Source of the DNA: Cellulomonas rhizosphaerae
GTDB lineage: Bacteria > Actinomycetota > Actinomycetes > Actinomycetales > Cellulomonadaceae
DNA: 64,000 nucleotides
Reading direction: 5' to 3'
NCBI RefSeq assembly: GCF_003470205.1
Contig: NZ_QWKP01000223.1
Coordinates: 1-64,000, forward strand
Shown: in pieces, positions 42,836 through 61,900 of the stretch
Position numbering within the stretch: position 1 is the first letter of the stretch
Layout: the number at the start of each line of letters is the position of its first letter
Program-made: the position numbers and the translations under genes
Notes under the pieces: generated by a model
The model's input: only the letters and a program-made list of their open reading frames with translations
What the model was told of the DNA's origin: nothing
Database searches by the model: none

Positions 42836-43822
42836 TCAGTCCTCCGTCTTCGTGGCTGCAGCCCTCAGGGCCTCGAGCAGGGGAGCGGCGGCCTCGTCGA
42901 GGAACCGCTGCTGTCCGTCATCACCGATCTGGACGATGGCGACGTCCGTGAAGCCGGCCTCCCAGTAGGCCGCGACGGCTTCGACGTGCGCGTCGAGGTC
43001 CGGCCCGCACGAGATCGACTCGGCGACGTCCTCGGGCCTCACGAACTGGCTGGCAGCCTCGAACCCGGCCGGCATGGGCAGGTCCGCGTTGACCTTCCAC
43101 CCGCCGCTGAACCAGCGGAACTGGTCGTGCGCGCGCTCGATCGCCCGCTCGCGCGACGGGTCCCAGCAGATCGGCACCTGGCCGATCTTGCGGGAGGCCT
43201 CCCCGCCGCGAGCCTTGTCCCAGCTCGTGACGAGGTCGGCGTCCGGCTCGACGGCCACGAGGTGGTCGACGAGGGGTGCGAACCGCTCGATCGAATGGTC
43301 CCCGCTGACCGCGACACCGAGCTCGACCGGGCTCTCCGGCAGGTCCCACAGCTTCGCCTGGTCCACCCGGAAGTGGTTGCCCTCCCAGGTCACGAGCTCG
43401 CCGTCGAGCAGCGAGCGGATGATCGAGATCGCTTCTTCGAGCATGTCCTGCCGCTCGCCGACAGCGGGCCAGCCCTGGCCCACCACGTGCTCGTTGAGGT
43501 TCTCGCCGGAGCCGAGGTTGAGCTGGAACCGGCCCTCGGACAGCACCGCGAGCGTCGCGGCCTGCTGCGCGACGACCGTCGGGTGGTAGCGCATGGTCGG
43601 GCAGGTCACGTAGGTCATGAGCTCGACGCGGCTGGTCGCCTGCGCGACCGCGCCGAGCAGTGTCCAGGCGTTCGGCGCGTGCCCCTGGCCGTCCAGCCAC
43701 GGGAAGTAGTGGTCGGAGGAGACCAGGAGGTCGAAGCCGGCGCGCTCCGCGTCGGCCGCATAGCCGACCAGCTCGCGGGGGCCGGACTGCTCGGTCATGA
43801 GGGTGTACCCGAATCGCGTCAT
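42836..43822 (-). CDS. F420-dependent LLM-class oxidoreductase
   Basis: A 328-residue luciferase-like TIM-barrel oxidoreductase, probably using coenzyme F420 (TIGR03557-type, related to F420-dependent glucose-6-phosphate dehydrogenase). Visible elements are VSSDHYFPWLDGQGHAPNAWTLLGA (active-site His and Trp), the phosphate region FQLNLGSGENLNEHVVG and the C-terminal VAAYWEAGFTDVAIVQIG. ATG 43822 removes an upstream extension that would run through an inverted repeat. The substrate is unknown. The small DUF6582-like gene lies directly downstream on the same strand. Confidence 0.87.
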   Translation of the reverse strand: MTRFGYTLMTEQSGPRELVGYAADAERAGFDLLVSSDHYFPWLDGQGHAPNAWTLLGAVAQATSRVELMTYVTCPTMRYHPTVVAQQAATLAVLSEGRFQLNLGSGENLNEHVVGQGWPAVGERQDMLEEAISIIRSLLDGELVTWEGNHFRVDQAKLWDLPESPVELGVAVSGDHSIERFAPLVDHLVAVEPDADLVTSWDKARGGEASRKIGQVPICWDPSRERAIERAHDQFRWFSGGWKVNADLPMPAGFEAASQFVRPEDVAESISCGPDLDAHVEAVAAYWEAGFTDVAIVQIGDDGQQRFLDEAAAPLLEALRAAATKTED

Positions 43823-43868
43823 CCCCTGACGGTCACACCGGGCGGCTCGGCGCGCACGTCGGCGACGC

Positions 43869-43952
43869 AGATAGCCGCACTTGTGACGCACGTGCACTCC
43901 TGAGCCTGCGATTCGCCCCACCAGACAACTTTCGTCACAAGTGCGGCTGTCT
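43869..43952. repeat. Long inverted repeat between divergent genes
   Basis: Twenty-base arms (43869-43888 and 43933-43952) share AGCCGCACTTGTGACG and differ at one position; a 44-nt loop separates them. It lies between the oxidoreductase start and the promoter of the giant operon, a place unsuited to a terminator. It may be an operator pair or a mobile-repeat relic. Confidence 0.6.
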
Positions 43953-43980
43953 CGGGCCGGTGGGCACGGCGGTGGACCCC

Positions 43981-44010
43981 TTGACGCGGACGGGCATGTA
44001 TCTCTATGCC
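43981..44010 (+). promoter_or_regulatory. Candidate promoter of the giant operon
   Basis: TTGACG (43981-43986) and TATGCC (44005-44010) are 18 bp apart. This would start transcription near 44017, upstream of ATG 44035 and ATG 44062 but downstream of the in-frame GTG at 43960, which argues against the longest reading. Confidence 0.45.
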
Positions 44011-44061
44011 TGGTTTGTCCCCCTTTTGGGTGACATGGACTCCCGCGCGGAAGGCCAGGCG

Positions 44062-47000
44062 ATGACGCTCTGGGACGACCTGCCCGGCTCGACCACCTCC
44101 GGTGGAGCGCTCGACCAGCTGCGCCCGCTGCTCGACTCGGTCGACACCCCGACCTCGACCGAGCGCCCCGAGGACGACGGCACGTGGAAGATCTGGTCGA
44201 CGACGATCGGCGGCGACCGATCGCTCGAGATGGACCTGGGCAGCGGCGCGATCAGCCACGGCGGGTCCACGGGCGACGGGGGAGCGATCGAGCTCTCGTC
44301 CGGCTTCGGGGTCGAGCTCGGCCTGCGGCTGACCGGGCCGGGCGGCGATCCCGACGGCACGGTGCGCGTCACCCTGACGGTGCCGAGCTCGTCGATCCGG
44401 ATGCCCTACCTGCGCGGCGCGATGCTCGACGCCCAGGGACAGCTGCGCGCCGATCCGTCCCATCCCCTGGTGCGGTTCAAGCTCCCGAGCGTCAAGGTGC
44501 GCGTGCTGCGCCCCGCGGGCGGGTCGGTCGGCGTGGACCTCATCCCGGCGCCGAGCGCCGGGACGCCCGACGACCCCGTGGTCGACCTGGTGAAGATGGA
44601 GCCGCCGTACGCGCTGATCGGGCCGGGCGACGTGGTCGGCTTCGCGTTCCGGGCCGCGGTGCTGGACCTGTCCGGGACCGCCGGGCCGGGCGGGGTGCCG
44701 GCGGGTGCGCGGACGATGCCCGACGAGTGGCAGGGGCTGTACCTGCCCGAGGTGCGGCTGTTCGTCGCGCCGAACGGGCTCGAGGGCCTCGCGGTGAGCG
44801 CGGGCGTGCGGAACCTGTGGATCGGGTTCGGGGCGCACGCGGGCGTGACGGGCGAGTTCAACGCCGAGGTGGTCAACCGCGGCTCCGCGCCGACGGTCCG
44901 CATCCGGTTCCAGACGCCTGCGGGCGAGTGGGTCGGCGTCCCGGACACCGACCCGATCTCCCCGGTCGAGCTGCCCGAGAACGTGACGATGTTCGTCGAC
45001 GGCGGCGGGGGCATCGCGCCGCTGCGCATCCGGCTGCTCGTCGACGGCACCGAGACGATCTCCGACCGCGTCGCCCTGACCGTCCCCGACACGGGTGACA
45101 TCCACGTCGAGGTGACCGTCACCGACGCGGGCTCGCACGCGACGACGAGGACGTTCGACGCGCACCGCCGCACCGGCGCGGGTCACGGCTCCTCCACCGC
45201 TCGCGACGTCGTACCGACCACCACCTCGAACGTCGGCTTCCGCGTGCTGACCCAGCCCGCGACCGGCAACGCGGTGACCGTCTCGCTCAACGAGGACCCG
45301 CACGGCACGGTCACCTGGACCTGGGCCGGGCACGCGCCCGTCACCGGCCCGACCGCGCAGATCGAGGTCACCACCGGCACGCCCGTCGACGTCCAGGCCC
45401 GGATCACACGGACGGGAGGCGGGGCGACGACGACGATCGACGCCTACTACTCGTTCGACCACCCCACGCCCGACGAGATGCGCAGCGGCCCCTCGACGCC
45501 CTGGTGGATGGCGCCCGGCAACATCCGCTCGCAGCACTTCCGCACCCGCACCGACCCCGGCACCGCCCCGAACCTGCTGAGCCCCGACGGCCTGGCCCGC
45601 CTGGGCGCGCTGCCCAAGAGCGTGCGCTGGACCGTCGAGGGGTGGGCCTCCTACGAGGGGCAATCCGGCACCGCGACCTACAACCGGGAGCTGTCCGAGC
45701 GGCGCCGCGACGCCCTGATCGCGCTGCTCGAGGACGCCTCCCGCTCCGAGCTGCACTTCACGAACGTGACCCCGGTCGATCCGGGGCACGGCGAGACCGA
45801 CGCGCAGGCGTCCGGCCCGACCGGAACGCCGGCCCAGGACGCGCCCGACTGGTGGCACGCCCGGGCCCGCGCGGCCGTGGACCAGACGATCGACGTCACC
45901 GCGCACCTGGAGCGCCCCGCGGCCGACCCGCCGCCGCAGAACACCGACCCCGCGCCCACGCGCACCCCGGTCCCGGCCTGCTTCCGCAAGCTCGGCGTCA
46001 CGGTCGAGCTCGTCCGCTCGACGTTCGTGCGCGCCGAGATCTACGGCGAGATCGACATCCAGACCGCGGCCGAGAACCGGATCGGGTCCGTCAAGCCCGG
46101 CGCGACCATCCCGCCGCGAGACAACCCGAACGACGGGATCAGCCAGTTCCTGCTGCGGCTGCGCATCGCCGAGGACCGCTCGAGCTGGGACGTCACCGCG
46201 CAGTTCAAGGCGATCGACGCGGACAAGGACGGCCTGTGGCAGCAGGTCCGCGGCTCGGGCGACCAGACCGGCCTCGACATCCTCGGGGCGGTCGCGGTGC
46301 TGTCCCCGCTGCTGGCTGCCGTGACGCCGCCGTCGCCCACCGCGGGCGAGCTCGTGCCCATGGTCATCGCGGGCGGGCTCGCGGTCGGCGTGGGCGCCGC
46401 CGGGGTCATCAAGACGCAGAAGATCACCCTGCACGGCGGGCAGCTCGTCGTCACGAGCGGGCTCGTCGACCCCGCGACCGGCGACGGCCCACGCAGCACG
46501 AGCATCAGCGTGCTGCTCGACGTCGAGACCGCGTTCACGTTCGACATCGGCATCCTCAAGGTCGAGCCGACCAAGCCGCTGACCGCCCGGTACAAGGCCG
46601 TCGGCCTGCGCTCGCAGTGGCGCTCCGACCCCCAGCCCGACGGGTCCGTGCAGTACGTGCCGCTGCCGGTGTTCGACCCGTCGGCCGGCTACTCGCTCGA
46701 CATCCCGATGGGTTCGCTCATCGGCCCCGACGCGCTCAAGGACATCCTGCGGGTGGTCGGCGGCAGGATCAGTCGCGACAACCCGCTCTACCTCGAGGTC
46801 GAGGTGGGCCTGGGCATCGACCTCGGCATCGTGACGGTCGACTCGGCGCGCGTGCGGATCCGGCTCGACCAGGCCGAGTTCCCGCAGCTGACCGCGCTGG
46901 GCGCGAGCATCGACGTGCCCAACGTGATCCACGGGTCCGGCTACGTGAAGATCGACGACTCGGGCTTCGAGGGCGCGTTCGACGCGACTCTGACGCCTGT

Positions 47001-50000
47001 GAAGCTGCGCATCGCCGCGCAGATCGCCGTCAAGCAGAAGGACGGTGTGACCGGCGTGCTCATCGGCGCCGAGGTCGAGTTCCCCGTGCCGATCCCGCTG
47101 GCCAGCTCGGGCCTGGCGATCTACGGCTTCCTCGGCGGCATCGCGGTCAACTTCGCGCGCGACGAGCCCACCGGGGTCCAGGTCCCGGCCCTCGCGTGGC
47201 TGCAGTCGCAGCTCGCCGACCCCAACGGCTCGGTCATGAAGCCGTCCGGCTGGAAGGTCCAGCCCGGTGCGTTCGCCGTGGCCGGCGGCATCCTGCTCGG
47301 CACCTCCGAGGGCGGCTACATCGTCCACCTCAAGGGCCTCGTGCTCGTCGAGGTCCCCGGCCCGCGCCTGCTGTTCGCCATGAAGGCCGACGTCATCAAG
47401 GCGCCCCCGGCCCTGAAGAACCCGAGCGAGCAGGCCACGTTCCTCGCGGTGCTCGACCTCGACTTCGGCCGGGGCACGATCACCATCGGGCTCGTCGCGT
47501 CCTACGAGGTGCCCAGCCTGCTGACCATCCGCGTGCCGGTGACCGCGTTCTTCGACGTGAACCACCTCGACCAGTGGTTCGTCGACCTGGGCACTAACAC
47601 CAACCCGGTGACCGTCAACGTGCTCGACGTGTTCGAGGGCACCGGCTACCTCATGGTGCACGGCGACGGCACGACGATCCACATCGAGGGCCTCCCGCTC
47701 GTCACCACGGGGATCACCGTGGCGGTCGGCTTCCACATCAGCGTCGTGCTCATGGGCTCCAAGGCCGTGGGCCTCTACCTCGAGGTCGCGGCCGGCTTCG
47801 ACGCGATCGTCTCGTTCTCGCCGTTCGCGATCGGCGGGCGCATCTACGTCTCGGGCGAGCTGCGCCTGTGGATCATCGGCATCTCCGCGAGCGCCGAGCT
47901 CACGGTGCTCGTCGGGCGCCAGGTCGTCGACCAGGGGCTGCCCACCGAGCACGTCATCGACCGGACGTACGTGCACGGCAAGGTGTGCGGCGAGGTCGAC
48001 TTCTTCTTCTTCAGCGTCAAGGGCTGCGTCGAGCTGACCATCGGCGACTCCACGCCGCTGCCGCTCGTGCCGCCGCCGCTCGTCTCGGGCGTCAGCCTGG
48101 TCTCGCGGTCGCCCGCGCTGGTCGACGGTTCCGCGGTGGACCGGGCGGTCGACGGGGTCATCGGGCGGGCGGTCGCGGCGGGGTCGGCCGACGAGCTGCC
48201 GAGCGTGCCGCTCGACGCGATCCCGGTCGTGCTGTTCGAGACGGCGCCCGGGGTCAAGGCGGGCAACATCGTGCTCGGTGGCGTCGCGCGCGGAGCCAAC
48301 GGCCTGCCCGCCAACCCGTGGATCCAGCGCGGCGAGGCCTGGTACCGCTACCGGATCACGTCCGTCGAGCTCGTCGGGGACCTCACGCCGGGCACGACCC
48401 CGGCGACCTGGTGGGCACGCGCGCTCGTCGGCGACCCGCTGGTCGGGCCCGCGCTCGCGCTGCTGTCCTGGCTGCCGACCGCGACCCCGCGGGCCGTGGC
48501 CCTCGGGCGCGAGCTCACGACGACCGTCGAGGAGCGCTGGGGCACGATCTGCACCCCCGTCGCCAAGGCGGTCCCGGTGCTGTGGACGTTCGACGAGCAG
48601 GCCACCGGCCCGTCCGCGACGGGCTGGATGCTGACCGGGGTGGCCTGGCCCGACGAGCCCGGCACGTGGCGCTCGGCCCCGCCCGACTCGCAGGCCGTGG
48701 TGCGCGAGCCGTGGCGCACCGGGGACGCGTTCGTCGACCTGCTGCAGGGCACCGACCCGGCCGTCGTCGTCGGCGACCGGGTGACGTGCCCGCGCAAGGG
48801 CGGCGTCCTGGGGACCCGCCGCGAAGCGCTCGCCGCGACGAACGGCTCGGCCGCGACCTTCGGGCCGGGCGCGCTGCCGGCCGCGGGTGCCGGGACCGCA
48901 GACGTGCTGACCCTGCTCGCGGGCGGCGTCTCGCTGCAGGACGCGCAGGCGGCATGGGGGCGGATCGCGACCGGCGACGGCCAGAGCCAGTGCGAGGGGC
49001 GCATCCTGCGCTCGCCCACGGGCGACGAACCCGAGCCGGCCCCGGGCGCCGACGACCTCGAGGTCGAGCAGGTCAAGCAGGCGTGGGACGCGCGCAGGTT
49101 CTCCCCCAGCGAGCTCGCCGACAGCGTCACGCTGCGCGTCGAGGCGGGTCTCGCGTCGTTCGACGCGCTGCTGCTCGTGCCCCGGCGCGGCATCGAGAGG
49201 GGCCTCGTGCTGCGCGCGCGCGACGCCGACGGGAATCTCATCGACGAGTACCGCGCGAGCGGCGCGGACATGATCACCTCGAGCCACCCGATCCCGTCGC
49301 AGTGGCTGGCCGATCCGTGGTCCGACCCCGTGCAGCGCGCGGCCCAGATCGCGGCGCGCGTCATGGCCGCGGGCGGCGGCTTGCTGCCCGTGCTCCTCTC
49401 GCCGAAGGTGCCCGACGGCACGGTCGAGATCGAGATCGGCTGGGACCGGGACGCGAAGGACCTCCTCGGGCTCGCGTTCTGGGTGGTCGCCGCGGCCGGG
49501 ACCACGGCCGCCGAGCTGCACCGCGAGGACTGGGACACCACGACGATCACGACCGACAAGGGCGCGGTCGTCACCGCCGTGACCGACGACCCCGACGACC
49601 ACGCGCTGCTGCTCCCGGGCCGGGAGTACACGGTCCGCGTCGGCTGGGAGGCGCAGTCGATCAAGCAGGAGGCCAAGCCGCCGGCCAACGCCCCCGAGTC
49701 CTACACCGCGGGCACCCCGCAGGAGTTCCGCTTCCGGGCCGACGGCACGGACAAGGCCCCCGAGCGGCTCGAGCCGTGGCTGCTGACCACCGCGCCGGGC
49801 GTCGGCGAGGCGGGCGTGCTGCTCGACGAGCCGCTGCGCATCGCGCTGGCCACGCAGAAGGTCGGGGCGCTGTTCGACGCGTACGGCGAGGAGATCCGGA
49901 TCGTCGTGCGGTCCGCGTCCGGCCGCCACCCCTCACCCCCGGGCGGCGGCGCACCCGGCGCGCCGGTGACGATCCCCGCCGAGATCGACGGCACGCTGCT

Positions 50001-50796
50001 CGCCGCCGTCGAGGGGGTCGCGGTGATGACCCCCTGGCAGGAAACCGTGACCGCGCTGCTCGACACCCTGCCGTGCACCCCGGACGCCGGGTCGAGGACG
50101 TACCACTCGGTCATCACGCTCGACTACCCGCTCGAGCCCCTGACCGACTACCTGCTCGACGTACTGGCCGTGACCAAGGGCGCTCCCGAGAGCGCCGAGG
50201 GCCGACGGCTCTACCGCGTGCCGTTCACCACCTCGCGGTTCCACGACGTGCCCGAGCTCGCCGGCCTGTTCGCCGCGACCCGCCCGCTGCACGCCCTGGT
50301 CCCGGTCCCCGCCGGCCTGGCGACCCTCGCGGAGCGGCCCACCGGCGGTCAGCTCGACGAGGCGTTCCAGGCCGCCGGCCTCCCCGTGCCCGAGGTGCCG
50401 CGCTACCCCGCGGTGCAGGTGCTGTGGTCGCCCGACGCGGTGCCGCAGCCCGTGGCCGTCGTCGTCGAGGGCAGCGAGTCGCTGTGGCGCTCGCGGCTCG
50501 TCGCGACCCGGGTGGAGGGACCCGCAGACGCCGACGACCCGACGCACGAGTGGTGGGCACCGAGGCCCGGCGACTGGATGACCCTGCACGTGGCGGGCGG
50601 CGGAGCCCCCGTGACGCGCGTCGTGCGCGCACCCGGCGACACCCGGGCCGTGATCCTGCTGGGTGCGGGCGCGCGCGGCACGCAGCTGACCGTGCAGCTC
50701 CAGCGGGAGGCCGACGAGCTGTCCGGCACCCCCGCTGCGCCCGTGACCGCCGTGCAGGTGCTGCTCGAGCGGGCCCCCTGGGAGGTGGAGGACTGA
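44062..50796 (+). CDS. Giant protein with OmpA-like segment and DUF6603-like core
   Basis: About 2244 residues, function unknown. The N-terminal 450 residues are beta-rich, including a MPDEWQGLYLPEVRLFVAPNGLEG phrase. Residues about 515-640 look like an OmpA-type peptidoglycan-binding fold (VEGWASYEG, YNRELSERRRDALIALLED). A hydrophobic Gly/Ala stretch lies near 735-790. Residues about 850-1320 form long amphipathic strands around GLAIYGFLGGIAVNFARDEP, like DUF6603 proteins (from memory). The rest is Ig/Fn3-like. There is no signal peptide, so it is cytoplasmic or non-classically exported. The start could be ATG 44062 (AGG upstream) or 44035. The stop overlaps the next start (TGATG), so both proteins are made together. 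Confidence 0.8.
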   Translation: MTLWDDLPGSTTSGGALDQLRPLLDSVDTPTSTERPEDDGTWKIWSTTIGGDRSLEMDLGSGAISHGGSTGDGGAIELSSGFGVELGLRLTGPGGDPDGTVRVTLTVPSSSIRMPYLRGAMLDAQGQLRADPSHPLVRFKLPSVKVRVLRPAGGSVGVDLIPAPSAGTPDDPVVDLVKMEPPYALIGPGDVVGFAFRAAVLDLSGTAGPGGVPAGARTMPDEWQGLYLPEVRLFVAPNGLEGLAVSAGVRNLWIGFGAHAGVTGEFNAEVVNRGSAPTVRIRFQTPAGEWVGVPDTDPISPVELPENVTMFVDGGGGIAPLRIRLLVDGTETISDRVALTVPDTGDIHVEVTVTDAGSHATTRTFDAHRRTGAGHGSSTARDVVPTTTSNVGFRVLTQPATGNAVTVSLNEDPHGTVTWTWAGHAPVTGPTAQIEVTTGTPVDVQARITRTGGGATTTIDAYYSFDHPTPDEMRSGPSTPWWMAPGNIRSQHFRTRTDPGTAPNLLSPDGLARLGALPKSVRWTVEGWASYEGQSGTATYNRELSERRRDALIALLEDASRSELHFTNVTPVDPGHGETDAQASGPTGTPAQDAPDWWHARARAAVDQTIDVTAHLERPAADPPPQNTDPAPTRTPVPACFRKLGVTVELVRSTFVRAEIYGEIDIQTAAENRIGSVKPGATIPPRDNPNDGISQFLLRLRIAEDRSSWDVTAQFKAIDADKDGLWQQVRGSGDQTGLDILGAVAVLSPLLAAVTPPSPTAGELVPMVIAGGLAVGVGAAGVIKTQKITLHGGQLVVTSGLVDPATGDGPRSTSISVLLDVETAFTFDIGILKVEPTKPLTARYKAVGLRSQWRSDPQPDGSVQYVPLPVFDPSAGYSLDIPMGSLIGPDALKDILRVVGGRISRDNPLYLEVEVGLGIDLGIVTVDSARVRIRLDQAEFPQLTALGASIDVPNVIHGSGYVKIDDSGFEGAFDATLTPVKLRIAAQIAVKQKDGVTGVLIGAEVEFPVPIPLASSGLAIYGFLGGIAVNFARDEPTGVQVPALAWLQSQLADPNGSVMKPSGWKVQPGAFAVAGGILLGTSEGGYIVHLKGLVLVEVPGPRLLFAMKADVIKAPPALKNPSEQATFLAVLDLDFGRGTITIGLVASYEVPSLLTIRVPVTAFFDVNHLDQWFVDLGTNTNPVTVNVLDVFEGTGYLMVHGDGTTIHIEGLPLVTTGITVAVGFHISVVLMGSKAVGLYLEVAAGFDAIVSFSPFAIGGRIYVSGELRLWIIGISASAELTVLVGRQVVDQGLPTEHVIDRTYVHGKVCGEVDFFFFSVKGCVELTIGDSTPLPLVPPPLVSGVSLVSRSPALVDGSAVDRAVDGVIGRAVAAGSADELPSVPLDAIPVVLFETAPGVKAGNIVLGGVARGANGLPANPWIQRGEAWYRYRITSVELVGDLTPGTTPATWWARALVGDPLVGPALALLSWLPTATPRAVALGRELTTTVEERWGTICTPVAKAVPVLWTFDEQATGPSATGWMLTGVAWPDEPGTWRSAPPDSQAVVREPWRTGDAFVDLLQGTDPAVVVGDRVTCPRKGGVLGTRREALAATNGSAATFGPGALPAAGAGTADVLTLLAGGVSLQDAQAAWGRIATGDGQSQCEGRILRSPTGDEPEPAPGADDLEVEQVKQAWDARRFSPSELADSVTLRVEAGLASFDALLLVPRRGIERGLVLRARDADGNLIDEYRASGADMITSSHPIPSQWLADPWSDPVQRAAQIAARVMAAGGGLLPVLLSPKVPDGTVEIEIGWDRDAKDLLGLAFWVVAAAGTTAAELHREDWDTTTITTDKGAVVTAVTDDPDDHALLLPGREYTVRVGWEAQSIKQEAKPPANAPESYTAGTPQEFRFRADGTDKAPERLEPWLLTTAPGVGEAGVLLDEPLRIALATQKVGALFDAYGEEIRIVVRSASGRHPSPPGGGAPGAPVTIPAEIDGTLLAAVEGVAVMTPWQETVTALLDTLPCTPDAGSRTYHSVITLDYPLEPLTDYLLDVLAVTKGAPESAEGRRLYRVPFTTSRFHDVPELAGLFAATRPLHALVPVPAGLATLAERPTGGQLDEAFQAAGLPVPEVPRYPAVQVLWSPDAVPQPVAVVVEGSESLWRSRLVATRVEGPADADDPTHEWWAPRPGDWMTLHVAGGGAPVTRVVRAPGDTRAVILLGAGARGTQLTVQLQREADELSGTPAAPVTAVQVLLERAPWEVED

Positions 50797-53700
50797 TGGA
50801 TCGCATCTCCCGTCCGTACTGGCTGCGGGCCACCGGGTCGCAGGTGCCGTGGGCGAGCGTGCTGCGCGGGCAGCTCGTCGGCGTCCCCGGCCTGAACGCG
50901 ACCACGCACGTGTCCGACTCGGTCGCGCCGTGGATCCGCAACGCCGCGGCCGAGCTCAAGGAGCGGGCCGTCGACGTGCAGCTGCGCTGGCAGTGCAACC
51001 CGCTGCTGGGCGTGCCGTTCGGCCCGTTCACGGTGTGGGTCGGGCGGCCGCGGCCCAAGGTCCGCAAGGTCGACGTGCAGGTGCGCGAGCACGACGACGG
51101 GCTCACGCTGCGGCTGCCGACGATCGCCGCGATCGTCGTCGTCGACTGCCAGGTCGTCGACACGAGCCAGCCCGTCGGGATCATCGGGACCTACCGGGGC
51201 GGCGGGCTGACCGAGGCCATGGGTGCCGCGGCCGTCTCGGTGCCCGGCGGCGGGCGCGCGATCCTGCAGCTCAAGACCGCGGGGATCACCCGCGTGCTGC
51301 TCACCAACGGCACCGACCCGCAGGTGCAGATCGTGCCGCTGCAGGAGATCGTGGACGACCCGGGCTGGAAGCCGATCGAGCTCGTCGGCCTGCCCGTCGA
51401 CTCGCCGTGGAGCGGCACCGACTACGACACGTCGAAGCAGGGGATCATCTCCGCGCTCACCGACCCGGTCACCGCGGCGCACCAGCGGCTCGACCGCGGC
51501 GGACCGCCGCTGGGCTGGGCGCCGGTGACCGCGACCGGCCACGCCGTCTCGCCCGCGTGGCGCGCGCCGGACCCGACCGGGCTGCTCAAGGAGATCGTCG
51601 GGGACCTGCTGCCGCGCATCGACCGGCTCTACCGGCCGGGCCGCACGCCCGCGGACCAGGCGGCCCTCGCGGACTCGCCGCCCGTGGACCCGCCCTCGTC
51701 GGGCGGTCGCACGTCCTCCCTGGCCACGACCGCGACCCTCTCGCCGCTCTCGCTCCTGACCCTGCCCGCCTCGGCGGACCCCTTCCTCGCGCTGGCCACG
51801 GGCTTCGGCACCGCGTACCCCGCCACGCAGCTGCCCCGCGGCGAGGGCCTGGAGTTCATGGTCACGGCCGACTACCCCGACACCCCCGCCCGCACCGGGC
51901 CCGTCCAGGTCGCGGCGTACATCCCGGAGCCCGAGCCGCACATCGCCACCACCACGCCGCACGCCCTGACCACCCGCCGCTCGGGCTTGCTCGCGCCCGA
52001 GGTCCGCGACGGCGCGTGGCGCGAGTCCGTGCAGGTGCAGTGGGACCGCGTGCCCGGGTCAGTCGCGATGGGCCGTCCGACGTCCGGCGTCGTCGCCCGC
52101 TACACCGGGGCCTCGGCCGCCGAGGTGCTGGTCGACGAGCGTCTCGCGGGCGACCGTCGCGCGCTCGTCCTCGTGCCCGACGGGCCGTCGCCCACGCCCG
52201 CGTTCAACCGCACGTCCATGGTCGACGCGGACGTCGAGATCCCGCTCGGTAGCGGTGGCCGGCACGTCGGCTACCCGATCGCGGTGCAGGACGTGTTCGG
52301 CGTCTGGTCGCCGTGGGCCGACGCGCCCTGGGACGGCGACGAGCCGGGCCCGCCCGGGCCGCACGTCGTCGGCGTCTCGCTGACCAGCAGCTACACCGGG
52401 TCGACGACCTGCCCGGCGACCCTGACCGTCGAGGTCTCGGTCGAGTGGGGCGACCGCACACCCTCGTCGGTCGCGCTCGCCGCCGTGCTGTTCCGCACCC
52501 CGACGGCCGCCGCGCCGCCCCCCGCGGGCGTCGACCCGGTGCTGCCCGCTCCCGCGGGGGCGTTCCGACGCGACGTCACCCTTCCCTTCGCTGGCGAGAC
52601 CCTCACGGGCCCGGGCGACGTGACGATCGAGCACCTGAACGAGGCCGGCGACGCGGTCGTCGCACCCGGCTCCGCGCAGGGCGCCTCCGGCCGCCGGTAC
52701 CGGGTGACCATCCCGGTGCCGACGCTCGACTTCTCCACCACGCCGCGCTGGGGGGTCCAGGTCTGGGCGCGCGTGCCGCTGGTGGTCGTCGGCGACGCCG
52801 GCTGGCTCCCCGACCCGGCGCACCCCGCGATCGCGGGCGTGGCCAGCCCCGTGCCGGTCCCGCCGATCCTGCCGCCCGCCCCGCCCGGCGTGCCGATCGG
52901 CTCGACACCCGACGCCCAGGGGCGCAGCCACGTGCGCGTGCACTGGTCGGTGGCGTCGGGCGCCGCGCTCGACGGCCGCAAGGGCATCGCGGTGTGGGAG
53001 GCCGCGGAGACCTCGCTGCGGCAGGCGGCCGGACTCGCGCAGAAGGCGCCCGACGGGACCCTGCCGGGTGTCCGCCTCGCGCAGCTGTGGGCCGCGTACG
53101 ACGCGATGACGCCGACGGCCCGGCGCGCGGCCTTCCGCCGGCTGCTCGAGCTGCCGGGCACCGCGCGCGAGACCGACGTCGCGCTGCCCGCGGGCTCGAC
53201 CGACATCCACCTGTTCACCGTCACGACGCTGTCCCCGACCGGGGTGGCCTCCGACTGGCCGACCGGCTCGCCCGCGCACACGGTTCTGCAGTCCGTCGCC
53301 GCGCCGCGCCTGCGCCGCCCGGGCCCGCCGCGCGTCCGGACCGTGCTCGGCGCCGCCGGGACGGTCTCGGTGTCGCTGTCCGCCGACTCCGACGTGCCGG
53401 TCGCCTCGTTCCTGCTCTACCGGACCCGGTCGGCCGAGGCCGCGCTGCGCCCCGAGACGATGGGGCCTGCGTTCGCGACCGTCCCGGCCGTCGCGCCGGC
53501 GCCCGGCGCCCCGGTCGACCCCGCGTCGGGGCTCGCCTTGTACTCGGGCTCGTGGTCGGGCGCGTTCGATGCGTCATGGGACGACTGGCACGTGCGCGCG
53601 GTCGCCGTGCCCGTCGACACCGTGCCGGTCGAGGCGGTCCGCGGGCTGCCCTCGCCGGCCAGCGACGACGTCGTCGTGCGCGTCCGGCCGTCCGGCCCGC

Positions 53701-54569
53701 CCGACCTGGCACCGCTCGTGGCAACCGTGTTCGGCGGTGGCCACGACGGGGTGCTTGTGACGACCTCGACCTCGTCGACCTCCCGGACGCTGGCCGACGG
53801 CGCCTTCCGGGTCTCGGCTGTCGCGGACGGGATCGGGAGCGTCGACCCGCTCGCGCTCGGCCTGGTGCCGGCCGGTCCGGTGACCGGGACGGCGCCGCCC
53901 GCACCATTCGCGCTCGTCGCCGGCGCGCGAGCTGCGGGCCGCACGCCGCTGGCCCTGTGGTTCACGCGGCCCGTGGCCACGTCACCGGTCGCGGTCTCCG
54001 TGACGCTCGTCGACCCGGCCGGACGCTCGTCGGTCCAGTCCGTGACCGTGCCCGCGTGGGTGCCCGACCCGCCGTCGCTCGAGCTCGTCTCCGTGCAGCT
54101 GCTCGCGGGCTACGTGCTCGCCCGCGTGCGGTCGGACGCGCCGCTCGAGGACCTGCCGCCGACGGTGCTCACCGTGCTGGTCTCCGCCTCGCGTCGCACG
54201 TTCCCGCCGATCCGCCTCCCGCTGCGGGTCCCGGCCGCGGACCCGACCGCCGCGCAGGCGGTGCGCGAGGCGCTCCACCGTCTCGACCTACCCGACGCGC
54301 TGAGCTCCGACGTGCTCAAGGACGTGCGGCTGCCGGGACTGCCGGGGCCGGTCACGCTGCCGGTCTCCCTCTCGGTCGCGCTGCCGGACATCCCGCGCCG
54401 GGCCCGGATCAGCACGGCGCCGATCGTCGTGACCCGGGCGACGCTCGAGCAGCCGCACGAGTACGACGTGGTCATCCGCGTCGCGCCGCCGTTCACGCTG
54501 CGGGTCTCGCTGCTGACCGGCGACGGCCGGGCGACGCAGGTCTCGCGGGCCGTCAGGGCAGGGTCATGA
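50796..54569 (+). CDS. Large beta-modular partner of the giant protein
   Basis: 1257 residues, function unknown. It starts in a TGATG overlap with the preceding gene, with GGAGG upstream. The N-terminus (ISRPYWLRATGSQVPWASVLRGQL) and LLGVPFGPFTVWVGRPR introduce a first beta domain. A Pro/Ser-rich hinge lies near residues 285-320. Several Fn3/Ig-like modules follow, with recurring strand patterns such as PVASFLLYRTRS, DASWDDWHVRAVAVP and WGVQVWARVPLVV. No enzyme motif, signal peptide or membrane helix is seen. Tight coupling to the giant gene suggests a two-component structural assembly. Its end overlaps the convergent aminopeptidase gene by 17 bp. Confidence 0.78.
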   Translation: MDRISRPYWLRATGSQVPWASVLRGQLVGVPGLNATTHVSDSVAPWIRNAAAELKERAVDVQLRWQCNPLLGVPFGPFTVWVGRPRPKVRKVDVQVREHDDGLTLRLPTIAAIVVVDCQVVDTSQPVGIIGTYRGGGLTEAMGAAAVSVPGGGRAILQLKTAGITRVLLTNGTDPQVQIVPLQEIVDDPGWKPIELVGLPVDSPWSGTDYDTSKQGIISALTDPVTAAHQRLDRGGPPLGWAPVTATGHAVSPAWRAPDPTGLLKEIVGDLLPRIDRLYRPGRTPADQAALADSPPVDPPSSGGRTSSLATTATLSPLSLLTLPASADPFLALATGFGTAYPATQLPRGEGLEFMVTADYPDTPARTGPVQVAAYIPEPEPHIATTTPHALTTRRSGLLAPEVRDGAWRESVQVQWDRVPGSVAMGRPTSGVVARYTGASAAEVLVDERLAGDRRALVLVPDGPSPTPAFNRTSMVDADVEIPLGSGGRHVGYPIAVQDVFGVWSPWADAPWDGDEPGPPGPHVVGVSLTSSYTGSTTCPATLTVEVSVEWGDRTPSSVALAAVLFRTPTAAAPPPAGVDPVLPAPAGAFRRDVTLPFAGETLTGPGDVTIEHLNEAGDAVVAPGSAQGASGRRYRVTIPVPTLDFSTTPRWGVQVWARVPLVVVGDAGWLPDPAHPAIAGVASPVPVPPILPPAPPGVPIGSTPDAQGRSHVRVHWSVASGAALDGRKGIAVWEAAETSLRQAAGLAQKAPDGTLPGVRLAQLWAAYDAMTPTARRAAFRRLLELPGTARETDVALPAGSTDIHLFTVTTLSPTGVASDWPTGSPAHTVLQSVAAPRLRRPGPPRVRTVLGAAGTVSVSLSADSDVPVASFLLYRTRSAEAALRPETMGPAFATVPAVAPAPGAPVDPASGLALYSGSWSGAFDASWDDWHVRAVAVPVDTVPVEAVRGLPSPASDDVVVRVRPSGPPDLAPLVATVFGGGHDGVLVTTSTSSTSRTLADGAFRVSAVADGIGSVDPLALGLVPAGPVTGTAPPAPFALVAGARAAGRTPLALWFTRPVATSPVAVSVTLVDPAGRSSVQSVTVPAWVPDPPSLELVSVQLLAGYVLARVRSDAPLEDLPPTVLTVLVSASRRTFPPIRLPLRVPAADPTAAQAVREALHRLDLPDALSSDVLKDVRLPGLPGPVTLPVSLSVALPDIPRRARISTAPIVVTRATLEQPHEYDVVIRVAPPFTLRVSLLTGDGRATQVSRAVRAGS

Positions 54570-55317
54570 TCTCCGCGCCGTCCTCGGTGATCGCGATCGT
54601 GTGCTCGCTGTGCGCGGTCCGGGCGCCCGTGGCGCTGCGCAGCGTCCAGCCGTCGGCATCGGTCACGAGCTCGTCGGTGTCGGCCATGACCCACGGCTCC
54701 AGCGCCAGGAGCAGGCCGGGACGCAGCGTGTAGCCGCGGCCCGCCCGGCCGTCGTTGGCGATGTGCGGGTCCTGGTGCATCGTCGAGCCGACGCCGTGCC
54801 CGCCGAAGTCGCCGTTGATCGGGTAGCCGGCCGCGGTGAGGACCTCGCCGATCGCGTGCGAGAGGTCGCCGATCCGCGCGCCCGGACGCGCGACGGCGAT
54901 CCCCGCCGCCAGGGCCCGCTGCGTCGCGTCGATCATCGCCTCGTCCTGCGGGCTCGCGGTGCCGACGACGAAGCTGATCGCCGAGTCGGCGACGATGCCC
55001 TGCAGCGAGACGGCCAGGTCGAGCGAGAGCAGGTCGCCGTCGGCGAGGGTGTAGTCGTGCGGCAGGCCGTGCAGCACCGCGTCGTTGACCGACGTGCAGA
55101 TGTAGTGCCCGAACGGGCCCCGGCCGAAGGACGGCGCGTAGTCGACGTAGCAGGACAGGGCGCCCGCGTCGACGATCATCTGCTGGGCCCAGCGGTCGAT
55201 GTCCAGGAGGTTCGTGCCGACCGTGCTGCGGCTCTTGAGGGCCTGCAGGATCCGGGCGACGAGCGCGCCGGTGTCCTTGGCTCGGAGCAGCTCGGCCGGG
55301 GTGAGGATCTCGATCAT
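54553..55317 (-). CDS. map: Methionine aminopeptidase, type I
   Basis: Removes N-terminal methionine from nascent proteins. The 254-residue product has all five metal ligands (Asp100, Asp111, His174, Glu207, Glu238) and the active-site His83, each offset by 3-4 from E. coli Map; it lacks the SH3-binding N-terminal extension. ATG 55317 follows GAAGAAGG. It is divergent from a small XRE regulator and not next to secY/adk, where the housekeeping copy is usually found, so this may be a second, regulated isozyme. The promoter region contains three iterons. Confidence 0.94.
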   Translation of the reverse strand: MIEILTPAELLRAKDTGALVARILQALKSRSTVGTNLLDIDRWAQQMIVDAGALSCYVDYAPSFGRGPFGHYICTSVNDAVLHGLPHDYTLADGDLLSLDLAVSLQGIVADSAISFVVGTASPQDEAMIDATQRALAAGIAVARPGARIGDLSHAIGEVLTAAGYPINGDFGGHGVGSTMHQDPHIANDGRAGRGYTLRPGLLLALEPWVMADTDELVTDADGWTLRSATGARTAHSEHTIAITEDGAEIMTLP

Positions 55318-55344
55318 GGCGCCTTCTTCGTCGTGCATCCAATA

Positions 55345-55380
55345 ACTATCCCGGCCATACTATCCCGGTATTACTATCGG
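55345..55380. promoter_or_regulatory. Three 14-bp iterons between map and the XRE gene
   Basis: ACTATCCCGG at 55345, ACTATCCCGG at 55359 and ACTATCGG at 55373 are spaced exactly 14 bp in an AT-richer island. They cover the map promoter region, and the third contributes TACTAT, a -10 candidate 7 bp before the XRE ATG, so that gene may be leaderless. Autoregulation by the XRE protein is the simplest reading. Confidence 0.65.
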
Positions 55381-55384
55381 CTCC

Positions 55385-55645
55385 ATGGTTCGACTCCCGC
55401 TCACCCCCGCCGAGCTCGAGCGCGGCCAGCGCCTGGGCGCCCTGCTGCGCCAGGCCCGCGGGGACCGTTCGATCCTCGACACCGCGCTCGACGCCGGGAT
55501 CTCGCCGGAGACGCTGCGCAAGATCGAGTCCGGCCGCGTGGCGACTCCCGCGTTCCCGACGATCGCGGCGATCGCGGCCGTCCTGGGCCTCTCGCTCGAC
55601 GCGGTCTGGGCGGATATCAGCGCACCGGCGAGGCTCGCCTCCTAG
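55385..55645 (+). CDS. Small XRE-family DNA-binding protein
   Basis: An 86-residue single-domain helix-turn-helix protein: LGALLRQARGDRSILDTALDAGISPETLRKIESGRVATPAFPTIAAIAAVLGL. The scaffold covers nearly the whole protein, with no effector domain. ATG 55385 probably begins a leaderless transcript. It lies divergent from map across iterons and so probably represses itself and map. The stop shares CTAG with the convergent gene. Confidence 0.85.
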   Translation: MVRLPLTPAELERGQRLGALLRQARGDRSILDTALDAGISPETLRKIESGRVATPAFPTIAAIAAVLGLSLDAVWADISAPARLAS

Positions 55646-56262
55646 GCGGCGACCGGACGGGTCCAGACCTCGCCCTCGCGGTGAAAGCCGACCTTCGTGA
55701 GGTACGTCCGCGCCTTGGCGTTGTCGCCGTGCTCCAGGGTCGCGAAGCCCTTCGCGGCGAACACCCCGCTGCGCTGGTAGACGTACTGCCCGGGCGTGAA
55801 GTCGCGGAAGCGCGGCGTCACGTAGTCGATCTCGACACGGCCCACGCCGTTGCCGGCGTCTCGCACGACGACCATCCCGACGGCCTCGTCCTGGCGCGCG
55901 ACCACCCACACCGAGCGGTCGTCGCCCACCGGGTCGAGGGTGTCCGGCTGGAACGTGGCGATGTCGTCGCGGTGCACGGCGAGGATGTGCCGCCACAGGG
56001 CGTCGTCGGTCCCGACCTCGATGACCTCGTAGGTGACGTCGTCGTTGCGCTCGCGCTGCAGGCGGATCACCCAGTAGATGTCGATGATCGTGATGACGCC
56101 GTTCATCACCGCGAACGGCCACACGCCGATCGCCGCGTTGTAGCCCGTGGCGAGGGCCGCGCCGACGAGGTTCATCCAGCGGAACCGCAGCACGCGCGCC
56201 TGCATGAGGCTCAGGATCACCAGGATCGAGCCGACCCAGCCGAGCAGGTCGAACCAGGACAT
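55642..56262 (-). CDS. Membrane protein/GNAT acetyltransferase fusion
   Basis: 206 residues. The N-terminal 70 residues form two to three helices (LLGWVGSILVILSLMQARVLRFRWMNLVGAALATGYN and MNGVITIIDIYWVIRL) resembling YgjV-type or PQ-loop-like small membrane proteins. The C-terminal part looks like a GNAT domain: VWVVARQDEAVGMVVVRD, YVTPRFRDFTPGQYVY and GDNAKARTYLTKVGFHREG. Both halves lie in one frame. It starts at ATG 56262, overlapping the upstream oxidoreductase stop (TGATG), so the two are coupled. Function unknown. Confidence 0.72.
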   Translation of the reverse strand: MSWFDLLGWVGSILVILSLMQARVLRFRWMNLVGAALATGYNAAIGVWPFAVMNGVITIIDIYWVIRLQRERNDDVTYEVIEVGTDDALWRHILAVHRDDIATFQPDTLDPVGDDRSVWVVARQDEAVGMVVVRDAGNGVGRVEIDYVTPRFRDFTPGQYVYQRSGVFAAKGFATLEHGDNAKARTYLTKVGFHREGEVWTRPVAA

Positions 56263-58247: not shown

Positions 58248-58952
58248 ATGCCCAAGACGTTCGACCAGACGCAGGCCCTGATCCGCACGCTGCTGGCCAT
58301 CGCCGACGGGGGCTCACCGCACGAGGCCGAGCGTGAGCTCGCCCGCAGCCGCGCGGAGAAGCTCATGCTCCGGCACAGCATCGACGAGGCGAGCGTGCGG
58401 ATGACGCGCGAGGAGGCGCACGAGCCGGTCCGGACCGACACGGAGATCGTCGGCTCGTGGGTGCTGGACCGGCTCGCGCTGCGCTCGGCCGTCTACGGGG
58501 CGTTCGGCTGCCGCTCGCTGCGGGTGCGACGCGGCGGCGCGACCGAGCACGTGGCGTTCGGGTTCGCGTCGGACATGTCGATGGCCGCCGTGCTCGCCGA
58601 CTCCCTGGAGCCGCAGATGCTCGCCGAGATGTACGCGCACGGCGGGACGGCCAGCGACAAGCGGGCGTTCGCGGCGGGGTTCACGATCGTCGTGGCGGAC
58701 CGGCTCACCGCGTTCTACGCCGAGGTGCTGACCGAGGCCGAGGCCGAAGGGACGTCGAGCGCGCTGGTCGTGGCCGCGCGCGACGCACGGGTCGACTCGG
58801 CGCTCGCGCAGGCCTTCCCGCAGGTGCGCACGTCCCGGCGTCGGCTGAGCGGGGCGGGCTGGTCGGCCGGGGCGGCCGCCGGCGCCCGGGCCGACATCGC
58901 TGTCTCGGGCCGCAAGGTCGACCCGTCGACGACGAGGGCGCTGGGGGCGTGA
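58248..58952 (+). CDS. DUF2786-domain protein
   Basis: 234 residues. The N-terminal ALIRTLLAIADGGSPHEAERELARSRAEKLMLRHSIDEA is typical of DUF2786, a helical domain found in actinobacteria and mobile elements, function unknown. The middle is an alpha/beta region (GCRSLRVRRGG, VAFGFASDMSMAAVLADSL, DKRAFAAGFTIVVADRL). There is no signal or membrane helix. It reads in the same direction as the nuclease/helicase gene 42 bp downstream, a likely operon. Confidence 0.85.
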   Translation: MPKTFDQTQALIRTLLAIADGGSPHEAERELARSRAEKLMLRHSIDEASVRMTREEAHEPVRTDTEIVGSWVLDRLALRSAVYGAFGCRSLRVRRGGATEHVAFGFASDMSMAAVLADSLEPQMLAEMYAHGGTASDKRAFAAGFTIVVADRLTAFYAEVLTEAEAEGTSSALVVAARDARVDSALAQAFPQVRTSRRRLSGAGWSAGAAAGARADIAVSGRKVDPSTTRALGA

Positions 58953-58994
58953 CGGCTCGAGCCGCGCGTCGGTGGGCGCCGATACGGTCGCGGT

Positions 58995-61900
58995 GTGTTC
59001 CTCCTCGATGACGGCGGGCTCGTCCTGAGCCCCAGCGACCTCACCCACGCCGCGACCTGCGAGTTCGCGGTCGTGCGCGCGCTCGACGCGCGCCTGGGCC
59101 GAGCCCCGGCCGTCCAGCTCGAGGCTGACGCGATGCTCGCGCGGGTCTCCACCCTCGGCCAGGTGCACGAGCAGCAGGTGCTCGCCGGGTACGGGCCCCG
59201 CGTGGTCCAGATCGCCCGGCCGACGTGGGAGCACGCGACCGAGCGGGCCACACTGGTCGAAGTCCAAAAGCGGACCCTCGCGGCGCTGCGGTCCGGCGCG
59301 CCGGTCGTCTACCAGGCCGGGTTCTTCGACGGCACGTTCAGCGGCTGGGCGGACTTCGTCGTCCGGCAGCCCGACGACCGCTACGCCGTGCACGACACCA
59401 AGCTGGCCCGCAGCGCCAAGACCACGGCGCTGGTCCAGCTCGCCGCGTACGCGGACCAGCTGGTGCGCGTAGGCGTCCCGACCGCCGACGAGGTCCACCT
59501 GGTGCTCGGCGACCGGAAGGTCTCGAGCCACCGCCTCGCGGACCTGCTGCCCGTGTACCGGGACCGTCGGGCGCGGCTCGAGGCACTGCTCGCGGAGCGG
59601 CGGGCGGACGACTCGCCCCTGCGGTGGCGCGACGAGCGGTACGCCGCCTGCGGGACGTGCGACGTGTGCGCACCGGAGGTCGCCGCGCACCGCGACGTGC
59701 TCCTGGTCGCGGACATGCGCAAGACCCAGCGCGCCCGGCTCGCGGACGCGGGCATCGAGACCATCGACGCGCTCGCGGCGTCCACCGAGCCGGTCGACGG
59801 CCTGAGCGGCGCGACGCTCGGCAAGCTGCGGCTGCAGGCCCGCCTCCAGGTCGGGCCGGGCGGCGTCACGCGTGAGGTCGCCGACGGCGCGCCGCTGGCG
59901 TTCGAGGTCGTGGACCCCGCGGCGATCGTCGCGCTGCCGGCGCCGAGCGCGGGCGACATCTTCTTCGACTTCGAGGGCGACCCCCTGTGGACCGACGACT
60001 CCGTCCCCGCCGACTCGCCCGCGGACTGGGGGCTCGAGTACCTGTTCGGGGTGGTCGAGGCTCCGGTCGGCGATGCCGACCCAGGGTTCGTACCCTTCTG
60101 GGCGCACGACCGCGTGCAGGAGCGAGCCGCCCTGGTCGCGTTCGTCAACTATGTGCAGTCGCGGCTCGCGCGGCACCCTGACCTGCACGTCTACCACTAC
60201 GCGCCGTACGAGAAGACGGCCCTGCACCGCCTCGCGGGCCGGCACGGGGTGTACGAGGAGGTCATCGACCAGTGGGCGAAGGACGGTCTGCTCGTCGACC
60301 TGTACGCGACCGTGCGCCACTCGCTGCGGGTGGGCGCCGCGTCCTACTCGCTGAAGAAGCTCGAGCCGCTCTACATGGGCGACCACCTGCGCGAGAGCGA
60401 CGTGACCAACGCGGCCGCGTCGATCGTCGAGTACGCCGAGGCGTGCGCCGAGCGCGATGCCGGGCACGACGAGGAGTGGCAGCGGCGGCTCGGCGAGATC
60501 GCCGACTACAACGAGTACGACTGCGTCTCGACGCTGCGGCTGCGCGACTTCCTGCTCGAGCAGGTCGGCGGCTCGGGGTCGGCGGACGACGGCGCGGCCG
60601 GGCCGGGCGCCGGCGGAGGCGACAAAGGCGACGGCGCAGGGCCGGAGGTCGACGAGCTCGAAGTCCGGTTGCGCGAGGGTGCCGCGGCGCTGCGGGCCGT
60701 GGTGCCGACCGACGAAGCAACCGACGAGGCCGCCGCCCGCGAGCGCGACGCGCACGCGCTCGAGCTGCTGGGCGCGTGCCTCGCCTACCACCAGCGCGAC
60801 GACAAGCCGTTCTGGTGGGCCCACTTCGCCCGCTTCCGCGACCCGGTCGACGAGTGGTCCGACGCCCGCTCGACGCTGCTGGTCACGGGGCCGGTCGACG
60901 TGGTCGCCGACTGGCACGTCACCCCCAAGGCGAAGCGCCCCCGCCGCGAGCTGCGGCTCCGCGGGACGCTCGAGCCCGGGAGCGAGATCAGGGCCGGCGC
61001 GAAGCCGTTCGTCCTGTACGACGCGCCGCCGTCGTTCACGACGATCCCGCACAACGGGCTGCGCGGCGCGACGGGCTCCGAGGTGCTGAGCGTCGAGACC
61101 GTCGAGGACGACGACGCACCCGGCGGGTCGTGGGACGTCGTGACCGTCCGCGAGACGATCGACGCGACCGCCGAGCAGGGCGACGACCTGCCCATGGGCC
61201 TGACCCCCGGGCGGCCGCCCGTGACCGACAACATCGCCGCCGCGATCCGCGAGCTCGCGACCACGGTAGCGAGCGGCCTCCCGCGCCTGCCGCAGCACGC
61301 GGCCCTCGACATCCTGCGCCGCGTCCCGCCACGCACGAGGTCGGGTCTGCCCCTGCCCCGGCCGGACGGCCCGCAGGGCACCACCGAGGCGATCACCGAC
61401 GCAGTCCTGGACCTCGACCACTCCTACCTCGCGGTGCAGGGCCCGCCCGGGACCGGCAAGACCTACACGGGCGGCCACGTGATCGCGCAGCTCGCGATGC
61501 AGGGCTGGCGCATCGGCGTCGTCGCGCAGTCGCACGCCGTGGTCGCGAACATGCTCCAGTCCGTGATCGCCGCGGGCTTCCCGCCCGAGCGCATCGCGAA
61601 GCGGAACAAGGACAAGGACGCCGACCTGCCCTGGCGCCCGGTCCCGAACGACAGGGACTACGGCGCGTTCTACGCCTCGGTGACCGGCGGCGGGTACGTC
61701 GTCGGCGGCACGACCTGGGACTTCGTCAACGCCAAGCGGATGCCCGACGAACCCTTCGACCTGCTCGTCGTGGACGAGGCCGGCCAGTTCGCGCTCGCCA
61801 ACGTGGTCGCCGTCTCGGGGATCGCGCGCAACCTCATGCTGCTCGGGGACCCGCAGCAGCTGCCGCAGGTCAGCCAGGGGTCGCACCCGTTCCCGGTGGA

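Follow-up and report, generated by a model that had tools for sequence, protein, structure and literature searches.

We analysed a window of 64,000 nucleotides from Cellulomonas rhizosphaerae (Actinomycetota; contig NZ_QWKP01000223.1, positions 1 to 64,000), and describe here a pair of giant genes within it, the first of which carries a DUF6603 core (Table 1). Both open reading frames (ORFs) reported in a preliminary description are present, encoding 2244 and 1257 residues, and they meet at a TGATG overlap (ctgatgg) in which the last base of gene 1 (50796) is the first base of the gene 2 ATG. That description ran the pair from 43981 to 54569; the end of gene 2 holds, but 43981 is an upstream in-frame TTG. 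The likely start of gene 1 is the ATG at 44062 (MTLWDD), because relatives retain MSLWDD, VTQWDD or VSLWDE starts there. Composition by codon position in gene 1 is of coding type (0.71/0.53/0.97). For gene 1, ratios of nonsynonymous to synonymous substitution rates (dN/dS) are 0.09, 0.35 and 0.16 against three Cellulomonas relatives (loci L011, L012 and L014), and gene 2 gives 0.10, 0.37 and 0.17 against the same three; this range of 0.09–0.37 denotes purifying selection, which thus keeps both as protein-coding genes. An antisense ORF of 2036 aa lies opposite gene 1 (window 43819–49929, minus strand) and is probably a high-GC shadow.

Scanning species genomes with a four-sequence alignment gave 50 loci. 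An iterated profile places a gene-2 relative downstream of gene 1 in 49 of these, the exception (L045) being a contig cut off within gene 1. Successive search rounds (E ≤ 1e-5) fed this profile, which makes the final scores in part self-trained; the single window gene-2 protein found 29 sequences in round 0 (the window's two entries included). Among nine loci picked by the gene-1 core alone, two of which (G225 and G401) are probably the same strains as L013 and L057, gene 2 is adjacent in eight; the short contig L097, the ninth, instead bears a relative of a third gene upstream. Our set of 49 gene-1 sequences comprises the window, L002, L003, L005 and 45 of the 50 loci; L036, L045, L056, L059 and L060 (split or cut ORFs) were left out and L004 was handled apart. 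Subtracting L005, which has no counted gene 2, leaves 48 junctions. The genes overlap by 1 nt in 24 and by 4 nt in 11 (35/48 together), and lie within 20 nt in 47/48. Each start was chosen as the best of the candidates close to the stop, a choice that biases the survey toward short distances, and the gene caller placed the start further on in L040, L041 and L054. Whether relatives routinely separate the two genes, a question raised by the preliminary description, is answered by this survey: none of the 48 junctions does. Pairwise distances for a gene-1 segment and for gene 2 correlate across 43 loci (Mantel r 0.945, with 0/2000 permutations as high), and the two genes are inherited together. 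Outside the junction set, L060 and L056 hold other ORFs between gene 1 and gene 2, probably broken genes, and in Methylobacillus glycogenes (L036, 9962–20516) gene 1 is spread over four ORFs and gene 2 over two, reflecting decay or assembly errors.

Window gene 1 matches DUF6603 (PF20248) with 41.5 bits (E 8.6e-11) against a curated cut-off of 27, bearing out the DUF6603 likeness proposed earlier; the core alone scores 45.8 bits. The match spans positions 21–258 of the 502 in the profile, and 15 of the 46 sequences in the core alignment, the window's among them, match PF20248 at E ≤ 0.01. A PF20248 family search of the window's own genome was empty, though hmmscan finds the domain at 8.6e-11, and we take this to be a limit of the tool. 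Core length is 688–752 aa in 48/49 gene-1 sequences (window included) and 565 in Azospirillum. An AlphaFold2 model of the core has 34 strands, 29 with at least nine residues, and a helical hairpin (predicted local distance difference test, pLDDT, 74.8; predicted template-modelling score, pTM, 0.52), predicting a large β-meander. Ordinary adhesins had been named as the fold to check for, and neither of two gene-1 models resembles one. The hairpin corresponds to the hydrophobic stretch seen earlier, with a mean Kyte–Doolittle value above 1.4 in 31/46 sequences for the first helix and 42/46 for the second. Close to the core end is a GEVDFFFF motif, whose G, V, D and last three F are invariant in 46/46 aligned sequences. 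To score hydropathy alternation, strands were hand-picked from the first model with the shortest ones omitted; at p ≤ 0.1 alternation is found for 16/18 strands of the later core and 5/7 of the earlier core (21/25 core strands), and for 5/10 strands N-terminal of the core.

Foldseek searches with the core returned four pilus usher chains at E ≤ 0.001 (4.9e-5 to 8.1e-4), followed by SlpA, LptD and ApoB100. At the same threshold a longer gene-1 model returned ApoB100 first (5.4e-6), with SlpA, the SDBC-SOD assembly, an usher and the S-layer deinoxanthin-binding complex. The best ushers have a Foldseek probability of 1.00, and the best usher match of the core pairs its E of 4.9e-5 with a query template-modelling (TM) score of 0.21 and a root mean square deviation (rmsd) of 24.6. 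With the VIA tool, whose stated typical best Z without a clear match is 7 to 8, the core gave LamB at Z 13.7 (rmsd 8.9, 279 aligned) and ApoB100 at Z 13.4 (rmsd 37.7, 440 aligned); ApoB100 reached 14.2 and 13.4 across the two gene-1 models. A core profile found no PDB match at E ≤ 0.1; its sole match at E ≤ 1, NADH-quinone oxidoreductase subunit 7 (0.12), was taken as chance. One BFVD match at E ≤ 0.001 (query TM 0.13) was not used.

Large outer-membrane barrels (the PapC/FimD ushers, LptD and SlpA) share with the modelled core long antiparallel up-and-down strands and supply its top Foldseek matches. They differ in that query TM is 0.12–0.27 and rmsd 14.5–26.7, the core has no PDB sequence relative at the threshold above, and gene 1 occurs in actinobacteria and has no signal peptide by a crude rule. 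Apolipoprotein B100 has long amphipathic β-belts, the proposed point of likeness, and heads the matches of the longer model; unlike gene 1, it is a secreted animal protein, with no sequence relation seen between them, and the superpositions are loose (query TM ~0.1, rmsd 12–65, Foldseek probability ≤0.38). The modelled core could form either a closed giant barrel or an open belt.

N-terminal to the core, family profile A11 matches Ig-like (immunoglobulin-like) structures in the PDB (phage decoration proteins, E 2.4e-4 and 6e-4; scIg12, 0.0069), and family profile A3 matches many solved OmpA-family chains (best E 2.5e-7). The OmpA-like segment of the preliminary description thus stands by profile comparison with solved domains, but Pfam does not list it for the window: PF00691 is absent at E ≤ 1 from the protein's list, and relatives reach 0.0021 (R. 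tropici) and 0.079, both below cut-off. In OmpA domains an Asp and an Arg contact peptidoglycan, and the window segment retains the latter, the LSxxR Arg. Unlike those domains, the segment is embedded in a giant protein and has GWAS at the position of GHTD, so that the contact Asp is replaced; Paracoccus-type relatives have Asp at this position. The C-terminal region of gene 1 has no PDB match at E ≤ 1 (profile A10, 22 sequences). The other alignments for models and profiles held 45 (A3), 44 (A4), 19 (A5), 46 (A7) and 36 (A8) sequences.

Gene 2 had been described as a chain of Ig/Fn3-like (fibronectin type III) modules, which Pfam, PDB profile and repeat searches do not establish. The window protein has no Pfam match at E ≤ 1, Big_6 is found in 2/36 family members (best E 0.013), no Ig/Fn3 match came from the PDB profile search, and internal repeats reach a best probability of 37.5; the Ig-like match falls in gene 1 instead.

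Twenty-three of the 50 loci carry a third large gene, the only neighbour that recurs at a fixed place in neighbour clustering. In Rhizobium tropici CIAT 899, where tblastn against plasmids found a near full-length gene 1 relative (94% covered), the same 1-nt overlap leads to a gene-2 relative and the third gene follows. No third gene was seen in the window's actinobacterial clade (15 loci, of which L030 and L039 extend just ~1 kb beyond gene 2), in the five Sphingomonas–Roseococcus–Demequina–Paracoccus loci, in the four Frankia–Streptomyces–Mesorhizobium loci, or in the window's own genome by a search without positive control; three further contigs end early (L045, L054 and L059). The Mycetohabitans version (509 aa, L004) matches PLDc_2 (9.6e-17) and, like the phospholipase D (PLD) superfamily, has the active motif, as HSKLMIVD. 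A profile of the other third-gene rows matches this protein at 9.1e-16 (a search of one sequence). Unlike the superfamily, these rows, from 18 of the 23 loci, lack HxKxxxxD in 18/18 cases, and the PLD model is matched by one of 19 rows. With L004 included, the gene-3 profile matches solved phospholipases D (best 2.9e-7). The third gene is apparently a phospholipase-D relative that lost HxKxxxxD. No convincing module is shared or repeated among the gene 1, 2 and 3 proteins in 1832 pairs of protein segments.

At the Mycetohabitans endofungorum locus (L004, 8201–21222) the order is a gene 2-like gene, the PLD with motif and DUF6603, among transposase genes. The 1322-aa neighbour there aligns to the gene-2 family (probability 96.5, 197 columns), and by sequence the locus would hold the three components in a different order; its DUF6603-type protein has weak concanavalin-like matches below cut-off. 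In L031 and L044 the third gene is split into two ORFs (decay or assembly errors). On an Azospirillum oryzae plasmid (L005, 13483–23823) a DUF6603-like gene is followed by two coupled large genes; these have no convincing match to the gene-2 or gene-3 profiles and were not counted as such, and are perhaps other partners for the same core.

The preliminary description looked for co-occurrence across actinobacteria. The pair does co-occur, but this frame is too narrow, since there are several phyla and, at some loci, the third gene. From record titles we take the 50 loci to belong to Actinomycetota, Pseudomonadota, Acidobacteriota, Bacteroidota, Gemmatimonadota and a myxobacterial metagenome-assembled genome. 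Distribution is patchy: with the window's own genome counted, gene 2 is found in 3/40 genomes of the genus and the gene-1 core in 5/149 of the order and 6/296 of the class. A core tree (FastTree, midpoint root) places Demequina in a five-member clade alongside Sphingomonas, Roseococcus and Paracoccus (clade support 1.0, exact place 0.36) and groups Frankia and Streptomyces with Mesorhizobium (1.0). From these patterns we read the cassette as horizontally moved. Plasmid records were matched by gene 1 (seven), gene 2 (one) and a Streptomyces-type gene 1 (two); gene 1 found no match in phages, nor in a pattern search of viral contigs. The loci show a scattered, conserved two- or three-gene cassette, encoding co-inherited giant proteins in mostly overlapping or abutting frames.

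A structural assembly had been suggested for the pair. Coupling and co-inheritance are in keeping with one, but neither the neighbours nor PADLOC favour any one of scaffold, lipid tube and injection device. The explanation that we favour, at slightly less than an even chance, is a fixed-ratio assembly without signal peptides that engages membrane or lipid. That the gene products form a coupled complex is very probable; that this assembly contacts membrane or lipid is evenly balanced. Gene 1 would be the main chain of one fixed-ratio complex, with its Ig-like and OmpA-like parts holding partners or the cell wall, and gene 2 would dock onto it. The DUF6603 core, with some 29 long, mostly amphipathic strands and the hydrophobic hairpin, would turn its greasy face to a membrane or lipid body. 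Where present, the third gene (an apparent PLD fold without the active motif) may add a further structural subunit. Because no signal peptide and no catalytic motif were recognised, the complex is probably produced and at work in the cytoplasm or on the inner side of the membrane, or else exits by a route not encoded alongside. On both counts the two window proteins are as first described, the former by the crude rule; signal-like N termini occur in 1/49 gene-1, 1/49 gene-2 (window counted twice) and 1/20 gene-3 proteins, and 18/19 third-gene rows are likewise without a recognised catalytic motif.

Several observations weigh against this assembly. Joint inheritance is no proof of contact, and a correlation such as that seen here is expected of any co-inherited pair. 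Predicted structures cover gene 1 singly, excluding its C-terminal part, and model confidence is moderate (pTM 0.39 and 0.52 for the two gene-1 models). The modelled likeness of the core appears to be one of sheet style (long antiparallel), with no shared fold or kinship, and long antiparallel strands by themselves draw porin matches. The PDB matches listed have TM-scores of 0.05–0.27 when normalised to the query, with large rmsd, and Foldseek probability for ApoB100 is just 0.38 and 0.30. The contrast in amphipathicity is only moderate, because half of the scored N-terminal strands alternate too. An outer-membrane role is not general, because 18/50 loci are, like the window, actinobacterial (from record titles). 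The PLD kinship of the third gene depends on the single relative L004, because the gene-3 profile without it finds no solved structure at E ≤ 0.1.

The OmpA-like and Ig-like segments could instead belong to a scaffold of the envelope or surface, whose very large proteins would somehow leave the cell, bind the wall through the former and use the latter as spacers. Host genera are mostly free-living as read from record titles, which suits a surface location, but signal peptides are missing by the crude rule, no export or sorting gene was seen recurring beside the cassette, and the peptidoglycan-contact Asp, present in Paracoccus-type relatives, is missing in the window; we consider this scaffold rather unlikely. 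The missing signal peptide, the strong coupling and the lack of a recognised catalytic motif would also suit a scaffold inside the cell that involves no lipid, with greasy faces packed together within the protein and the complex organising other cell components. Against it stand the alternation in 21/25 core strands and the lipid-facing nature of the best fold matches, both weak discriminators, and we consider it unlikely.

A released pore or delivery complex, Tc-toxin-like in logic only, would consist of fixed-ratio subunits freed by lysis, with the core as pore. Three large, coupled, signal-less proteins in 23/50 loci, the hydrophobic hairpin, large membrane barrels as top core matches, and a patchy spread with signs of transfer all fit such a device, but no toxin or protease family is listed in the scanned gene 1, 2 and 3 proteins, and no lysis or tail gene was seen recurring nearby. 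Pfam lists no TcA-, TcB- or TcC-type family for these proteins, no direct comparison to Tc toxins having been made, and we regard the released complex as quite unlikely. Patchiness, the single insertion site and the apparent PLD relative in some loci might also recall defence against phages or other mobile elements. PADLOC, however, matched no family in 5 proteins, the PLD motif is missing in 18/18 rows, and no defence genes were seen recurring beside the cassette, making defence highly improbable.

For the fixed-ratio, lipid-engaging assembly, we tentatively raise a further possibility, itself rather doubtful, of a new class of machine: a signal-less chain with a ~29-strand amphipathic meander (an ApoB-like belt or giant barrel) and one or two dedicated partners in fixed ratio, which would carry or enclose lipid, or open a membrane, and is spread across several phyla as a cassette. 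We rate the system as new because no known kind fits. DUF6603 is the only label found; this family, whose cut-off gene 1 exceeds, has no assigned function, and no record of partner genes was found for it. In keeping with the earlier view of an undescribed coupled pair, DUF6603/PF20248 and the system's protein and locus names returned nothing from 5.39 million open papers, a collection that excludes most subscription papers and all bioRxiv preprints. If our reading is right, several bacterial phyla share a giant protein assembly labelled solely by one functionless Pfam entry, and a giant β-protein engaging lipid elsewhere than in the outer membrane would not have been expected of bacteria. The DUF6603 label becomes a testable system, with defined subunits, a core, the GEVDFFFF motif, an empty comparison site and cultured carriers.

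Table 1 Features of the gene pair and its surroundings in the window
Feature	Position	Strand	Basis
Gene 1, 2244-aa giant protein with DUF6603 core	44062..50796	+	ORF, codon signal, conserved start, Pfam PF20248, dN/dS
Ig-like segment(s), gene 1 residues ~290–490	~44930..45540	+	Family profile A11 against PDB
OmpA-like segment, gene 1 residues ~516–592	45607..45837	+	Family profile A3 against PDB OmpA-family domains
DUF6603 core, gene 1 residues 640–1350	45979..48111	+	AlphaFold2 model, length conservation, hydropathy alternation
Hydrophobic helical hairpin within core, residues 735–782	46264..46407	+	Helices in models, Kyte–Doolittle
GEVDFFFF motif near core end, residues 1310–1317	47989..48012	+	Alignment of 46 sequences
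Gene 1 C-terminal region, residues 1351–2244	48112..50793	+	Profile A10 against PDB
TGATG stop/start overlap, gene 1/gene 2	50794..50798	+	Sequence (ctgatgg); junction survey
Gene 2, 1257-aa partner protein, no family assigned	50796..54569	+	Relatives downstream of gene 1, dN/dS
Approximate insert relative to sister genomes, ~12.4 kb	43823..56261		Flanks adjoin in sister genomes

Of six sister genomes inspected, two have the genes that flank the approximate insert side by side (44 and 55 bp apart) and one has them ~4.3 kb apart; in the other three the left-hand flank gene was not detected at this place. Between gene 2 and the right flank (window 54553–56262) are an M24 peptidase, a small helix–turn–helix protein and a YgjV-like protein (206 aa, below Pfam cut-off), which appear to be part of the same insert as the gene pair. 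Across loci, the 18 neighbouring proteins named by Pfam have no common theme. NCBIfam models hit none of 4 proteins tried. Gaps in the gene caller's output at several loci mean that rare neighbours may be missed. The largest neighbour cluster covers six lineage groups at scattered distances on both strands, the second (five groups) includes a protein annotated as an ABC ATPase, and one cluster of four consists of gene-1 pieces missed by the filter. Further along, window 58248–62570 encodes a DUF7168/DUF2786 protein beside a protein of 1191 aa that has AAA_12 helicase, RNase_H_2 and PD-(D/E)XK (just below cut-off) segments.

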